Shown: positions 1,664 to 7,497 of the stretch, piece after piece
How the letters are laid out: the number at the start of each line of letters is the position of its first letter
Position numbering within the stretch: position 1 is the stretch's first letter
Origin: Rhodospirillaceae bacterium UBA6608
GTDB taxonomy: Bacteria; Pseudomonadota; Alphaproteobacteria; Rhodospirillales_A; Casp-alpha2
Reading direction: 5' to 3'
Length of the DNA stretch: 7,497 nt
Assembly: GCA_002433335.1 (NCBI GenBank)
Contig: DJHY01000201.1
Span: 1-7,497, forward strand
Made by a program: the position numbers and the translations under genes
The notes under the pieces: model-generated
The model's input: only the letters and a program-made list of their open reading frames with translations
Told to the model about the DNA's origin: nothing
Database searches by the model: none

Positions 1664-1691
1664 ATAGCGTCTTTTGTGCGCCTGCGAGCGA

Positions 1692-1723
1692 TTGACGAGG
1701 GCGGGCGAGCATGCTGGTATATT
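1692..1723 (+). promoter_or_regulatory. Candidate promoter for the transglutaminase/DUF2126 gene
   Basis: TTGACG (1692-1697) matches the sigma-70 -35 consensus at five of six positions. TATATT (1718-1723) matches the -10 consensus at five of six and is preceded by TG plus one base, which makes an extended -10 (TGGTATATT). The spacer is 20 bases, longer than ideal; an extended -10 can partly offset this. The start point would be near 1730, giving a leader of about 54 bases. I saw no convincing terminator between the GST stop and this site, so read-through from upstream remains possible. Confidence 0.4.
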
Positions 1724-1727
1724 CGCC

Positions 1728-1760
1728 GCCGGAAGCCAGCGCAGGCGAGCCGGGAAGCCA
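1728..1760. repeat. Short direct repeat in the leader before the transglutaminase/DUF2126 gene
   Basis: GCCGGAAGCCA (1728-1738) recurs as GCCGGGAAGCCA (1749-1760) with one extra G. The copies start 21 bases apart, about two helical turns. They lie just downstream of the candidate -10 and across its expected start point, where a repressor could sit. In DNA this GC-rich a chance repeat is quite possible. Confidence 0.3.
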
Positions 1761-1783
1761 TTGAAAAGCGGCGTTAATCGGCC

Positions 1784-4700
1784 ATGAGCATCCATGTCGC
1801 CCTCCACCACCGGACGACCTATCTTTACGACCGGAAAGTTCAGATGGGCCCGCAGGTTATCCGCCTGCGCCCCGCCCCGCATGCCCGCACCCCGGTGCTT
1901 AGCTATGCCCTGAAGCTGGAGCCCGAAGGTTACTTCATCAATTGGCAGCAGGACCCGCACGGCAACTATCAGGCCCGCGTGGTCTATCCCGACCCGGTCG
2001 AGAAATTCCAGGTCACGATCGACCTGGTCGCCGACATGTCGGTGCAAAACCCGTTCGATTTCTTTCTAGAGCCCGAAGCCGAGGAGCTGCCGTTCGATTA
2101 CGCCCCGGACCTGAAACGGGAACTGGACGGCTACCTGCAACCGGAACCCGCGGGACCGTTGCTGCAAAAGTGGCTGGATGCCCTGCCCAAGCCCGAAGGC
2201 TCGACCGTGAATTTCCTGGTCGACCTGAACCAGCGTCTGCAGAACGACATCCAATATCTGATCCGCATGGAACCAGGGGTTCAAACCTGCGAGGAAACCC
2301 TGGAGCGGGGCATGGGATCGTGCCGCGATACGGGCTGGCTGCTGGTCGAAATCCTGCGCCACCTGGGTTTCGCCGCGCGCTTCGTCTCGGGCTATCTGAT
2401 TCAGTTGAAGCCCGACGTCAAATCCTTGGACGGCCCGTCCGGCGCGGAAGAAGATTTCACCGACCTGCATGCCTGGACCGAGGTTTACCTGCCGGGCGCC
2501 GGCTGGATCGGCCTGGACCCCACGTCGGGCCTGTTGGCGGGCGAAGGGCACATTCCCCTGGCCGCGACGCCGCGCCCGAGCAGCGCCGCGCCGATCAGCG
2601 GCGCCATCGGACAGGCCAATGTCGAATTCGATTTCGACATGCTGATCACCCGCATCGCCGAAACGCCGCGCGTGACCAAGCCCTATACAGAAGAACAGTG
2701 GCAGACCATCGACCGCCTGGGCGACGAGATCGATAAACAACTGGCCGATCAGGACGTGCGCCTGACCCTGGGCGGGGAGCCGACCTTCGTCTCCGTCGAT
2801 CACGTCGATGCCGAAGAATGGAACACCGCCGCCGTCGGCAAAACCAAACGCCCCTTGGCCGACGATCTGATCCGCCGTCTGCGCGACAAATACGCGCCCA
2901 ACGGCCTGCTCCACTACGGCCAGGGCAAATGGTATCCGGGCGAGCAACTGCCGCGTTGGGCCTTTGCGTTGTATTGGCGTAAGGACGGCGAGCCGATCTG
3001 GAAAGATCAGGAAGCCTTCGCCCGCGAGACCGAAGACCATAAGCCGGACATCAAGGCCGCCGAGACCTTTGCCCAGGGCATCGCCGAGCGCCTGGGCGTC
3101 GCACCCGAGGCCGCGACCCCGGCGTTCGAAGATCCCTGGCATTTCATGGAAAAGGAACGCCGCCTGCCGGACAACGTGACCCTGGACGATTCCAAGCTGG
3201 ACGACCCGCTGGAACGCGAGCGCCTGGCGCGGGTGTTTTCCAAGGGCTTGTCCACGCCGACGGGCTATGTCCTGCCGGTGCAGCGTTGGAATTCCAAGGA
3301 CGGGTCGCGCCGTTGGGTGTCCGAGCCTTGGTCGATGCGAACGAACCGGCTGGTCCTGATCCCCGGCGACTCGCCGGTCGGCTTCCGCCTGCCGCTGGCA
3401 TCCCTGCCCCATATCGCGGCCATCGATTATCCCTACGTCGTCCCCGCCGATCCGTTTTCCGAATTCCCCGACCTGCCCAAGGCCGATGCCGCGCGGCAAC
3501 CTTACCTGCAAGGTAGCGAGCATCCCGGCGCCAACCGCCAGACCGTGTCCGCGCAATCGCTGGGCGACGATGGTCGGCGGGTCCGCGCGGCGATGACGGT
3601 CGAACCCCGCGACGGGCGGCTGTGCGTGTTCATGCCGCCGACGGAAACTCTGGAAGACTACCTGGACCTGATCGCCGCCATCGAGGACGCGGTCGCGGAG
3701 ACGGGCATGCCCGTGCATATCGAGGGCTATGAGCCGCCGCACGATCCGCGCCTCAACGTCATCAAGGTCACCCCGGACCCCGGCGTGCTGGAGATCAATA
3801 TCCACCCGGCATCAAGCTGGCGGGAAATGGTCGAACATACGGAGACCCTTTATGAAGAGGCGCACCTATCGCGCCTGGGCACCGAGAAATTCATGCTCGA
3901 CGGTCGCCACACCGGCACCGGCGGGGGCAACCATGTGGTCGCGGGCGGAGCCACGGCGGCGGACAGCCCGTTCCTGCGCCGCCCGGACCTGCTGGGCAGC
4001 CTGATCACTTATTGGCAGCACCACCCCAGCCTGTCCTACATGTTCTCGGGCATGTTTATCGGCCCAACCAGCCAGGCCCCGCGCGTCGACGAAGCGCGCC
4101 ACGACGGCCTGTACGAATTGGAAATCGCCCTGGCGCAGATGCCGGACAAAGGGGCCGACTGCCCGCCCTGGCTGATCGACCGCATCCTGCGCAATCTGCT
4201 GATCGACGTTTCCGGCAACACCCACCGCACGGAAATCTGCATCGACAAGCTGTATTCTCCCGACGGCCCCACGGGCCGCCTGGGCCTGGTTGAATTCCGC
4301 GCCTTCGAAATGCCGCCCCATGCGCGCATGAGCCTGACGCAGCAATTGCTGTTGCGCGCCCTGATCGCCCGGTTCTGGGACGCGCCCTATTCCGGCCCGT
4401 TGGTCCGCTGGGGAACGCAGTTGCACGACCGGTTCATGCTGCCTCATGCCGTCTGGGCCGATTTCGAGGATGTGATCCGCGACATGAACGCCCATGGCTA
4501 TCCGTTCGATGCCGCCTGGTTCGCGCCCCATTTCGAATTCCGCTTTCCGCGTTACGGCGCCGTGCAGTACGAGCAGACGGAAATCGAACTCCGTCAGGCC
4601 CTGGAACCCTGGCACGTGATGGGCGAGGAAGGAGCGGTCGGCGGGACCGTGCGCTTCGTCGATTCCTCGGTCGAACGTTTGCAGGTCCGGATCTCGGGCC

Positions 4701-5095
4701 TGACCGGCGAGCGTTACCGCGTCGCCTGTAACGGCTACGAAGTCCCGCTGACGTCGACCGGCACGGCCGGGGAATATTTCGCGGGCGTGCGGTTCAAGGC
4801 TTGGAAGGCGGCTTCGGCCCTGCATCCCGGAATCGACGTGGACGCGCCGCTGACCTTCGATTTGTACGACACCTGGACCGGGCGGGCCGTTGCCGGCTGC
4901 ACCTATCACGTGGCTCATCCGGGTGGTCGAAACTTCGAACACTTCCCGGTCAATGCCTATGAAGCGGAAAGCCGCCGCCTTGCGCGATTCGAAGAGATCG
5001 GCCATACGCCGGGCCCGTCCGAGCCGCCGAAACGGACCGCCAGCGGAGAATTCCCGATGACGCTGGACCTGCGACGGGCGAAAACCGTGCATTAA
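1784..5095 (+). CDS. Transglutaminase-like domain fused to DUF2126 putative amidoligase
   Basis: This is a 1103-residue cytoplasmic-looking protein with no signal peptide or membrane segment. Residues 3 to about 95 match the bacterial transglutaminase N-terminal region (HHRTTYLYDRKVQMGP). A transglutaminase-like domain follows with an intact triad: Cys180 in GSCRDTGWLLVE, His229 in DLHAWTEVYLP and Asp245 in GLDPTSG. From about 290 to the end is DUF2126, a putative GS-fold amidoligase family. Its landmarks are LTLGGEPTFVSVD (327-339), EINIHP (670-675), GTGGGNHVV (711-719), THRTEICIDKLY (813-824) and VEFRAFEMPPHAR, with Glu837. The last ~150 residues look beta-rich. The start is bounded by an in-frame TAA at 1775-1777, and the ATG gives the family N-terminus, but no Shine-Dalgarno is visible. 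The next gene is an ATP-grasp/alpha-E fusion, the usual partner. The triad suggests thiol chemistry on peptides or isopeptides, such as hydrolysis or transfer. The substrate is unknown. Confidence 0.92.
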   Translation: MSIHVALHHRTTYLYDRKVQMGPQVIRLRPAPHARTPVLSYALKLEPEGYFINWQQDPHGNYQARVVYPDPVEKFQVTIDLVADMSVQNPFDFFLEPEAEELPFDYAPDLKRELDGYLQPEPAGPLLQKWLDALPKPEGSTVNFLVDLNQRLQNDIQYLIRMEPGVQTCEETLERGMGSCRDTGWLLVEILRHLGFAARFVSGYLIQLKPDVKSLDGPSGAEEDFTDLHAWTEVYLPGAGWIGLDPTSGLLAGEGHIPLAATPRPSSAAPISGAIGQANVEFDFDMLITRIAETPRVTKPYTEEQWQTIDRLGDEIDKQLADQDVRLTLGGEPTFVSVDHVDAEEWNTAAVGKTKRPLADDLIRRLRDKYAPNGLLHYGQGKWYPGEQLPRWAFALYWRKDGEPIWKDQEAFARETEDHKPDIKAAETFAQGIAERLGVAPEAATPAFEDPWHFMEKERRLPDNVTLDDSKLDDPLERERLARVFSKGLSTPTGYVLPVQRWNSKDGSRRWVSEPWSMRTNRLVLIPGDSPVGFRLPLASLPHIAAIDYPYVVPADPFSEFPDLPKADAARQPYLQGSEHPGANRQTVSAQSLGDDGRRVRAAMTVEPRDGRLCVFMPPTETLEDYLDLIAAIEDAVAETGMPVHIEGYEPPHDPRLNVIKVTPDPGVLEINIHPASSWREMVEHTETLYEEAHLSRLGTEKFMLDGRHTGTGGGNHVVAGGATAADSPFLRRPDLLGSLITYWQHHPSLSYMFSGMFIGPTSQAPRVDEARHDGLYELEIALAQMPDKGADCPPWLIDRILRNLLIDVSGNTHRTEICIDKLYSPDGPTGRLGLVEFRAFEMPPHARMSLTQQLLLRALIARFWDAPYSGPLVRWGTQLHDRFMLPHAVWADFEDVIRDMNAHGYPFDAAWFAPHFEFRFPRYGAVQYEQTEIELRQALEPWHVMGEEGAVGGTVRFVDSSVERLQVRISGLTGERYRVACNGYEVPLTSTGTAGEYFAGVRFKAWKAASALHPGIDVDAPLTFDLYDTWTGRAVAGCTYHVAHPGGRNFEHFPVNAYEAESRRLARFEEIGHTPGPSEPPKRTASGEFPMTLDLRRAKTVH

Positions 5096-5101
5096 CGCGA
5101 C

Positions 5102-5140
5102 TTAAACGGCTTATCAGATTAGATTAAGCTTGATCAAACA
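5102..5140. other. AT-rich patch with TTGATCAA palindrome between the two module genes
   Basis: Just after the DUF2126 stop, the composition switches to AT-rich for about 40 bases in otherwise GC-rich DNA. It contains AGATTAGATTAAG, with tandem GATTA, and the perfect 8-base palindrome TTGATCAA (5130-5137), next to AAGCTT. Such a patch suits a promoter or an operator for the ATP-grasp gene, but I could not find a -35/-10 pair with acceptable spacing. Its function is unassigned. Confidence 0.3.
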
Positions 5141-5150
5141 ACGCACTAGC

Positions 5151-5183
5151 GGACGGCAGGGCGATCTCTTATCCTCGCCGTCC
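5151..5183 (+). other. Hairpin in the leader of the ATP-grasp/alpha-E gene
   Basis: GGACGGC (5151-5157) pairs perfectly with GCCGTCC (5177-5183). AGGG (5158-5161) pairs with TCCT (5172-5175) through one wobble, leaving a bulged C at 5176 and a 10-base loop. No T-tract follows, so this is not a standard intrinsic terminator. It ends 47 bases before the ATG at 5231. It may be a transcript-processing or mRNA-stability element between the two genes, or part of a leader. Confidence 0.4.
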
Positions 5184-5211
5184 AACGTCGGGAATGGGCC
5201 GACACGGTCTT

Positions 5212-5225
5212 GGAGCAACGGGTGA
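5212..5225 (+). promoter_or_regulatory. Ribosome-binding region that decides the start of the ATP-grasp/alpha-E gene
   Basis: GGAG (5212-5215) lies 6 bases before an in-frame GTG at 5222. GGTGA (5221-5225), which also matches the anti-Shine-Dalgarno, lies 5 bases before the in-frame ATG at 5231. Another in-frame ATG is at 5252. I prefer 5231 because it is an ATG with a usable site. The GTG would add only three residues. Confidence 0.5.
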
Positions 5226-5230
5226 GCGGC

Positions 5231-7497
5231 ATGGATTCCGCCAAAAAAGGTATGTCGCAGGATCTTTTCCTGGCCGACAGCTATGCCCCGTTCTCTGGCG
5301 TCTACGACGAGATGATGGACCAGACCCACGGCGTGCGCCCGCATTGGCGTTACTTCCTGGAAAGCCTGGGCAGGTTCAGCCAGACCGAATTGCGCGAACG
5401 CTGGGACACGGCGCAGCGCCTCGTCCGCGAAAACGGCACGACCTATAACATCTACGACGAAACCGGCGAGTCAACGCGCCCCTGGCGGATGGACCCCCTG
5501 CCCTTTCTGATCGGGCCGGAAGAATGGAAATCCCTGGAAGCGGGGCTGATCCAGCGGGCCAAGCTGTTGAACGCCGTGGTCCGCGATATCTACGGCGAAC
5601 AGGATCTGCTTCAGCGGAACCTGCTGCCGTCGTCTCTGATCTACGGCAACCCGGCGTTCCTGCGCCCGATGCACGGCATTAAACCACCCGGCGATGTGCA
5701 CCTGCACTTCCTGGCATTCGACTTGGCCCGCGCCGCCGACCAGCGCTGGTGGGTTCTAAGCGACCGCACCCAGGCTCCGTCCGGCGCCGGGTATACGCTG
5801 GAAAACCGCATCGTTCTGGCCCGCACCCTGCCCGACATCTTCCGCTCGGCGCAGGTTCATCGTTTGGCCGGGTTTTTCCAGGCCCTGTCGGACAACCTGA
5901 TCGCGCTGACCGGCAAGGACGAGCCGCTGGCCGTGCTGATGACGCCGGGCCCACACAACGAAACCTATTTCGAGCATGCCTATCTGGCGCGCTATCTGGG
6001 CTTCCCCCTGGTCGAGGGCGCGGACCTGACCGTGCGCGACAACAAGGTCTATCTGAAGACCCTGAACGGTCTGAAGCAGGTCGACTTGATCTTGCGCCGC
6101 GTCGATTCAGACTTCTGCGATCCGCTGGAACTGCGAAACGACTCGCTGCTGGGCGTGGCCGGGCTGGTCGCCGCCGCCCGCGCGGGCAACGTCGTGATCG
6201 CCAATTCGCTCGGCTCCGGCGTGGTCGAATGCGAAGCCTTGATGAGCTTCTATCCGGGTCTGTGCCGGGAGCTTCTGGGCGAAGACTTGAAAATACCCTC
6301 GCTAGCTACCTGGTGGTGCGGCCAGGAACAGGAACGCGAATACGTCAGCCAACATCTGGACGAATTGGCCCTGCGGCCGACGTTCTCCAACTCATCGATC
6401 CTGTCGAACCGCAAAGGGGCCTTGCTGCCCGGTCAGGCGATCGGCGACCGCAGGCAAGAGGTCTTGGACCTGCTGGACCGTCGCGGCTACCAGTACTTCG
6501 GGCAGGAAACCCTGACCCTCTCGACCACGCCCGGCTGGTCCGAGGAAGGCATCGTGCCGCGCCCGGTGGTCCTGCGCGTCTATCTTTGCGCCGACGGCGA
6601 CAGCTACCGCGTGATGCCGGGCGGCCTGACCCGCACCACCGACAGCGTCAACGCCCAGGCCGTAACCATGCAGCAGGGCGATGCCTCGAAAGATACCTGG
6701 GTCCTGTCGGACACGCCGGTCTCGACCTTTACCCGGTTGGCTGCGCCCGATCAGGCGGTGACCTTGCGGCGCAGCGGCAATGACCTGCCCTCGCGCGTCG
6801 CTGACAACCTGTACTGGCTGGGCCGTTACGCCGAACGGACGGAAAGCTCCGTGCGCCTGATGCGGGCGATGATCCTGCGCCTCGCGGGTGAAGCCGGCGC
6901 CGGCGACGAGCCGCAGACCCTGACCCGCCTGACCAACATCCTGGTCGATCTGGAATACCTCAACCGGCGGACCGCCAATAAGGCCGCCGCCGGGGGCATC
7001 CGCGGCGTCGAACGAGAACTGGCGATCATCCTGTTCGATCGCGGCCGCGCCAACGGCTTGTTGAACTTGCTGGGAAATTTGCAACGCACGGCCTCGCTAG
7101 TGCGCGAACGCCTCAGCACCGATTCATGGCGTATTCTGAACAGCCTGCATCAACAGGCGGTCGGACAGGCATCGATGATTCGCCTGGACGTCAACGCCGC
7201 GTTGGCCTTTCTGAACCACATCCTGGAAGAGCTTTCGGCCTTCAGCGGCATGCAGATGGAAAACATGACGCGCTCGCTGGGTTGGCGACTGCTGGATACG
7301 GGGCGGCGCGTCGACCGCATTACCCATACGTCCAAGCTGATCCGCGAATTGGTGTTCGACGGCAACCCCGCGGAAGAAGGGCGTTTGGACCTGTTGCTGG
7401 AATTGGGCGACAGTTCGATGACCTACCGGACCCGCTACCTGTCGACGGTGCAATTGCCCGCGGTGGTCGATTTGTTGCTGACCGACGATACCACTCC
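5231..7497 (+). CDS. Circularly permuted ATP-grasp protein fused to alpha-E (DUF403) domain, 3'-truncated
   Basis: The frame stays open from 5231 to the window edge, giving 755 complete codons with no stop, so the C-terminus is missing. Residues ~10-500 are a type 2 circularly permuted ATP-grasp, predicted to ligate an amine to a carboxylate by way of an acyl-phosphate. Landmarks are GVYDEMMD near the N-terminus, MTPGPHNETYFEH (237-249), DLILRRVDSDFCDPLEL (285-301), NSLGSGVVE (325-333), and then ATWWCG. From ~518 the alpha-E domain begins with LPSRVADNLYWLGRYAERTE (519-538) and continues as helices to the edge. This domain usually has about 300 residues, so roughly 70-90 are probably missing. 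In many bacteria these two domains are separate neighbouring genes; here they are one chain. The gene follows the transglutaminase/DUF2126 gene by 135 bases and probably works with it. The reaction is predicted from the fold; the substrate is unknown. Confidence 0.92.
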   Translation, partial: MDSAKKGMSQDLFLADSYAPFSGVYDEMMDQTHGVRPHWRYFLESLGRFSQTELRERWDTAQRLVRENGTTYNIYDETGESTRPWRMDPLPFLIGPEEWKSLEAGLIQRAKLLNAVVRDIYGEQDLLQRNLLPSSLIYGNPAFLRPMHGIKPPGDVHLHFLAFDLARAADQRWWVLSDRTQAPSGAGYTLENRIVLARTLPDIFRSAQVHRLAGFFQALSDNLIALTGKDEPLAVLMTPGPHNETYFEHAYLARYLGFPLVEGADLTVRDNKVYLKTLNGLKQVDLILRRVDSDFCDPLELRNDSLLGVAGLVAAARAGNVVIANSLGSGVVECEALMSFYPGLCRELLGEDLKIPSLATWWCGQEQEREYVSQHLDELALRPTFSNSSILSNRKGALLPGQAIGDRRQEVLDLLDRRGYQYFGQETLTLSTTPGWSEEGIVPRPVVLRVYLCADGDSYRVMPGGLTRTTDSVNAQAVTMQQGDASKDTWVLSDTPVSTFTRLAAPDQAVTLRRSGNDLPSRVADNLYWLGRYAERTESSVRLMRAMILRLAGEAGAGDEPQTLTRLTNILVDLEYLNRRTANKAAAGGIRGVERELAIILFDRGRANGLLNLLGNLQRTASLVRERLSTDSWRILNSLHQQAVGQASMIRLDVNAALAFLNHILEELSAFSGMQMENMTRSLGWRLLDTGRRVDRITHTSKLIRELVFDGNPAEEGRLDLLLELGDSSMTYRTRYLSTVQLPAVVDLLLTDDTT

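Follow-up and report, generated by a model that had tools for sequence, protein, structure and literature searches.

We analysed a 7,497-nucleotide stretch of DNA from Rhodospirillaceae bacterium UBA6608 (contig DJHY01000201.1; hereafter the window), which carries two adjacent genes encoding a transglutaminase-like domain fused to DUF2126 (TG-DUF2126) and an ATP-grasp fused to Alpha-E. Our preferred reading, held at a little under even confidence, is that they open a three-gene operon running an amide-bond cycle, with ligases and thiol amidases acting on a small compound of amide or peptide-like nature. The operon's probable activity is to form and cleave amide (peptide-like) bonds, probably in the cytosol, as no signal peptide was seen by eye. 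The window is a further instance of a known operon type: Iyer et al. (2009; cited in PMC5666114 and PMC6376114) reportedly predicted that operons of this kind synthesise peptides or act as amidoligase systems, and the window has the same domains, fusion and neighbours as the TG-DUF2126 fusions flanked by ATP-grasp, Alpha-E and transglutaminase genes. Nothing in it departs from the known DUF2126 family (PF09899, ‘putative amidoligase’). What is added here is context, namely a stand-alone Alpha-E gene that is constant among the DUF2126 genomes sampled, and promoter sites. The features of the operon in the window are as follows.

1664–1783, forward strand: upstream spacer of the operon, scanned for sigma-54 and NtrC sites
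1784–5095, forward strand: gene 1, 1103 residues, transglutaminase-like (residues 6–246) fused to DUF2126 (277–1097)
1784–2608, forward strand: transglutaminase-like half of gene 1, from Pfam, alignment and predicted fold
2624–5092, forward strand: DUF2126 half of gene 1, a predicted glutamine-synthetase-fold amidoligase
5096–5209, forward strand: spacer between gene 1 and gene 2
5210–7497, forward strand: gene 2, a fusion of a circularly permuted type 2 ATP-grasp with Alpha-E, running on past the end of the window
6770–7495, forward strand: Alpha-E domain of gene 2, cut by the end of the window (start by tblastn; Pfam match from about 6785)

All four domains that a sequence-only reading had placed on these two co-oriented chains are present, and profile searches recovered every Pfam family it had named, far over the cut-offs. 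Gene 1 is one uninterrupted frame, in which Bact_transglu_N (PF08379) scores 81.5 bits, Transglut_core (PF01841) 58.2 bits and DUF2126 1362.2 bits, the last over profile positions 2–826 of 826. The transglutaminase triad, earlier described as intact, consists of Cys180 (codon 2321–2323), His229 (2468–2470) and Asp245 (2516–2518). It is invariant in all 65 sequences of alignment A1, which combines 47 proteins, out of 119 others listed, with 17 of the best 80 related loci; each protein search listed the best 120 out of 7999 candidates scored. The predicted fold of this half is that of 3isr.

Gene 2 matches CP_ATPgrasp_2 (PF14403; 487.5 bits) and Alpha-E (PF04168; 173.9 bits). The Alpha-E match covers only profile positions 1–216 of 294, because the window ends inside the domain. 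The protein database contains gene 2 at full length as P0123 (856 residues, 753 of 755 compared residues identical), in which the domain is complete (1–294 of 294, 229.6 bits). The list of open reading frames (ORFs) starts gene 2 at a TTG at 5210, while P0123 starts at the methionine encoded at 5231; this ATG is the probable start, in which case the window misses about 300 bases of the gene. Within Alpha-E, R532, R536 and E538 (P0123 numbering) are invariant in alignment A2, which took 78 of 120 listed proteins. The ATP-grasp part has an ATP-grasp fold by predicted structure, nearest to 3n6x, then to glutathione synthetases, E. coli YgiC/YjfC and glutathionylspermidine synthetase/amidase (GspSA). 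A relative in the Anbu operon of Y. bercovieri frees phosphate from ATP, according to PMC6376114.

The operon described earlier as comprising two genes owes that extent to the end of the window. Among the related loci (the best 80 of at least 592), 72 extend more than 4.5 kb downstream of DUF2126, and in 71 of these tblastn placed TG-DUF2126, ATP-grasp-Alpha-E and a second transglutaminase in this order on the same strand, so that the unit in relatives is a three-gene operon. In the remaining one (L017), ATP-grasp, Alpha-E and transglutaminase lie directly upstream of DUF2126 in the same direction; linkage of the operon genes survives the rearrangement, and the neighbourhood conservation called for in the sequence-only reading is borne out. 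In L003, whose gene 1 is 86% identical to that of the window, a frame with Bact_transglu_N and Transglut_core comes immediately after gene 2 or overlaps its end. The Cys, His and Asp columns of the second transglutaminase each have a frequency of 1.0 (rounded) over 90 rows. We infer that the window’s own operon likewise continues into a stand-alone transglutaminase gene.

No conserved small tag gene was found in the operon among 81 loci (the 80 and the window), from which 1680 small ORFs of 20–150 residues were grouped into 162 families. All 25 families spanning at least five loci map outside the operon, either ahead of gene 1 or behind the last gene, and they are absent from the 17 distant loci checked (the window, L001–L009, L011, L014, L049, L050, L055, L065 and L066). 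Nineteen families are represented within the operon; the largest of them covers four loci (Aurantimonas), and one is confined to the window and L003. The substrate is more likely a small amide or peptide-like conjugate than a gene-encoded tag. The earlier idea of peptide making or tagging is supported in part: a glutamine synthetase (GS) fold is predicted for DUF2126 and an ATP-grasp fold for gene 2, and no conserved small tag gene was found. In the Aurantimonas loci L022, L031, L052 and L064, the DUF2126 and ATP-grasp matches lie about 1 kb apart, and the four loci share small ORFs.

The DUF2126 half has a GS fold by predicted structure, and we predict it to be an ATP-dependent amide ligase. 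E332, E670/N672, H717, R815/E817 and E837/R839 are invariant in the 65 sequences and are candidate active-site residues; some of the invariant residues coincide with GS motifs where the sequence alignment lines up. In the proposed cycle, the ATP-grasp, partnered by the helical Alpha-E, would activate a carboxylate as an acyl phosphate and then couple it to an amine. A second ATP-dependent amide bond would be formed by the DUF2126 domain, and both transglutaminase-like thiol domains would cleave or exchange the bonds so made. Another ligation step would come from a stand-alone ATP-grasp/Alpha-E pair of the same genome, and in some lineages nitrogen limitation would switch the system on via NtrC and sigma-54.

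This stand-alone partner emerged from a sample of 150 genomes from Pseudomonadota, the phylum to which G003, the genome carrying L003, belongs. DUF2126 is found in 46 of them, Alpha-E in 83 and Anbu in 51. Fusion-length TG-DUF2126 frames occur in 44 of the 46 DUF2126 genomes, all of which have Alpha-E, compared with 37 of the 104 others (Fisher p 6e-16). The fused ATP-grasp-Alpha-E, counted where Alpha-E matched a frame of more than 800 residues, is present in 40/46 as against 4/104 (p 2e-25). Of the six DUF2126 genomes without it, G088, G124 and G136 have DUF2126 near a contig end; in G075 (L122), G103 (L123) and G115 (L113/L124) Anbu directly follows TG-DUF2126 and no fused ATP-grasp-Alpha-E was found. 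A stand-alone Alpha-E gene, taken as a match in an open frame of 313–575 residues, is present in 46/46 DUF2126 genomes (in G146 at a contig end) and lies within 15 kb of DUF2126 in 28. At least two Alpha-E matches were found in 41/46 DUF2126 genomes versus 4/37 DUF2126-negative Alpha-E genomes (p 2e-13). G003, the nearest genome, has its stand-alone set at C3 (L116), comprising ATP-grasp, Alpha-E and transglutaminase.

Several loci carry both sets side by side. In Burkholderia cenocepacia (L160), stand-alone ATP-grasp, Alpha-E and transglutaminase are followed on one strand by TG-DUF2126, ATP-grasp-Alpha-E and transglutaminase. The annotation of Caballeronia sp. Sq4a reads ATP-grasp, Alpha-E, metallopeptidase (opposite strand), TG-DUF2126, ATP-grasp and transglutaminase, and by tblastn the second ATP-grasp carries Alpha-E. 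Five genes of both sets are found together, with insertion-sequence transposases on either side, on the Enterobacter roggenkampii plasmid p1_120063, a 90-kb IncFII plasmid (L162; NZ_CP116251.1, 7603–16794). A search for near copies of these five genes matched one of 72,556 plasmid records, the plasmid itself, and no E. coli genome record. In the Nitrospirales metagenome-assembled genomes L004–L008, a divergent stand-alone ATP-grasp/Alpha-E pair lies upstream of the operon, showing that the two sets adjoin outside Pseudomonadota too. Azospirillum brasilense Sp7 (L163) has only the DUF2126 set within the stretch examined; Rhizobium johnstonii 3841 (L072) is another laboratory strain with the operon. 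One branch of the ATP-grasp tree separates the two sets (100 versus 35 rows; Shimodaira–Hasegawa-like approximate likelihood ratio test 100), with labels that were taken from the nearest query and are partly circular.

Upstream regions were scanned for sigma-54 sites (−24/−12 with at most two mismatches, within 350 bases), with the expectation drawn from random stretches of the same loci. Sites were found before TG-DUF2126 in 7/99 loci (1.04 expected) and before the stand-alone ATP-grasp in 8/38 (0.66 expected), counts that include many Rhizobium and Mesorhizobium loci and the identical sites of L127 and L128 and are thus not independent. Sigma-54 and NtrC sites occur jointly at two TG-DUF2126 loci (0.08 expected) and one stand-alone ATP-grasp locus (0.10 expected). 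These are L055 (Azonexus), L065 (Zoogloea) and L160, in the last before the stand-alone ATP-grasp, making three against about 0.18 expected. The enrichment of sigma-54 sites in some lineages agrees with published NtrC data. In an ntrC mutant of B. cenocepacia H111, PMC5491218 gives log2 values of −8.2 for I35_5080 (DUF404/407), −9.4 for 5081 (DUF403), −9.4 for 5082 and −6.0 for 5083, the last annotated as a ‘large protein containing transglutaminase-like domain’. I35_5083 would be TG-DUF2126 by its place in the gene order of L160, a different strain. Two further papers report that in P. putida on nitrate versus ammonium Anbu (PP_2685) rises by log2 4.44 and ATP-grasp (PP_2688) by 3.99 (PMC8050072), and that Bact_transglu_N and DUF403/404/407 are associated with urea-metabolism domains in marine metagenomes (PMC3597751). 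PMC5666114, however, describes Anbu operon expression as unchanged across conditions, save nitrogen limitation in P. putida. The link to nitrogen limitation is proposed for some lineages, and the window itself is without such sites.

Several observations weigh against the proposed amide-bond cycle and its control by nitrogen. The relation of DUF2126 to GS rests on a predicted model with a pLDDT (predicted local distance difference test) below 50 in several DUF2126 loops, and Foldseek alone reaches GS only from E 0.007. Sequence comparison shows no significant relation (hhalign probability 2.2, E 0.022); a profile search gave no Gln-synt_C match to DUF2126, and no GS appeared among its PDB sequence matches at E up to 10. 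NtrC palindromes alone (at most one mismatch) are hardly enriched, with 6/99 against 3.24 expected before TG-DUF2126 and 2/38 against 1.24 before the stand-alone ATP-grasp, and 92 of the 99 TG-DUF2126 upstream regions have no sigma-54 site at the cut-off used. In the window, no sigma-54 site was found in 1664–1783 (the best has six mismatches), nor an NtrC palindrome in the 350 bases upstream of gene 1 (best, three mismatches). Pull-downs described in PMC6376114 found no specific interaction among the Anbu operon proteins of Y. bercovieri.

The proteasome-like protein Anbu bears on whether the operon instead tags proteins as Pup systems do, with DUF2126 (of GS fold, like PafA) and ATP-grasp attaching a peptide, the transglutaminase-like domains removing it and Anbu degrading or trimming. 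The predicted GS fold would suit such a scheme, as would the presence of Anbu in 50/83 Alpha-E genomes versus 1/67 others and, in 12 of 26 genomes with both, its location no more than 15 kb from DUF2126. Within Alpha-E genomes, however, the two are independent (Anbu in 26/46 with DUF2126 versus 24/37 without, p 0.50), so that Anbu is neither required nor excluded by the DUF2126 operon. No Anbu match was found in the best 80 loci (the window itself ends early) or in G003, where, as throughout the 150 genomes, one query at E 1e-8 was used. Of 15 Anbu loci, six have ATP-grasp, Alpha-E, transglutaminase and Anbu all on one strand, four have ATP-grasp, Alpha-E and Anbu with transglutaminase undetected, one has the set divergent from Anbu and four have Anbu alone. 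With no conserved small ORF inside the operon (largest inside family, 4/81 loci) and Y. bercovieri Anbu reported to be without peptidase activity in PMC6376114, we regard tagging as decidedly unlikely.

Alternatively, DUF2126 could scavenge amines by placing glutamate or a peptide on them, like gamma-glutamylamide synthetases, with the thiol domains later releasing nitrogen. In the structure comparison the GS rows are nearly tied with ordinary GS at their head, which does not favour amine ligases, and no further enzyme family was recognised among the operon genes, those to which classification was confined; we consider this unlikely. A role of the transglutaminase-like domains in deamidating or crosslinking proteins for ammonia during nitrogen starvation, with the ligases repairing or recycling the products, would draw on the invariant triads of both transglutaminases and on ammonia release by transglutaminase, a possibility raised in PMC6376114. 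It leaves two ATP-grasp sets and a GS-fold ligase in one genome unexplained, and we judge it very improbable. More tentatively than the cycle itself, we suggest a two-stage system as a possible extension: the stand-alone set (ATP-grasp/Alpha-E and transglutaminase, with or without Anbu) would make an intermediate that TG-DUF2126 and the fused set extend or attach, yielding an undescribed peptide-like metabolite of nitrogen limitation, with the operon as an obligate second half. This agrees with the nested distribution (stand-alone Alpha-E in 46/46) and with a plasmid that carries both sets.

Compared with known systems, the operon has three of four gene kinds in common with its sister, the Anbu operon (ATP-grasp, Alpha-E, transglutaminase and Anbu). 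It differs in having DUF2126 and an Alpha-E fused to the ATP-grasp, in giving no Anbu match in the best 80 loci, and in that its ATP-grasp lies across the fully supported tree split (labels partly circular). Like the proposed cycle, GspSA pairs an ATP-grasp ligase with a thiol amidase, though the operon proteins are not members of its family; the GspSA amidase has another fold (CHAP), and GspSA and trypanothione synthetase have neither Alpha-E nor a GS-fold ligase. From GS and gamma-glutamylamide synthetases, DUF2126 is set apart by sequence, where the likeness is not significant, and by its fusion to a transglutaminase-like domain. Judged by titles and the starts of abstracts, no functional study of DUF2126, COG4196, Alpha-E proteins or the fused ATP-grasp was found among the papers listed. 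The gene set is common, conserved and predicted to spend ATP, and has no established substrate as far as our searches show; its nested occurrence and the NtrC/sigma-54 sites in the named lineages point to nitrogen-limited cultures of strains with both sets.

Upstream of the operon, the window holds two further features.

1–849: acyl-CoA dehydrogenase gene fragment, the window starting inside the gene
1010–1663: maleylacetoacetate-isomerase-like glutathione transferase (NCBIfam maiA, 233.6 bits against a cut-off of 171.05)

The frame before gene 1 in L003 looks by eye like an acyl-CoA dehydrogenase and stops 200 bases upstream, which leaves no room for the transferase and places it outside the operon. 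The G+C content of the window is 59–69% in 500-base steps, and no Rfam match was found in it. In the spacer at 5096–5209, neither a sigma-70-like nor a terminator-like site was found; a possible hairpin (GGACGGC ... GCCGTCC) was read by eye before gene 2, at 5150–5190.
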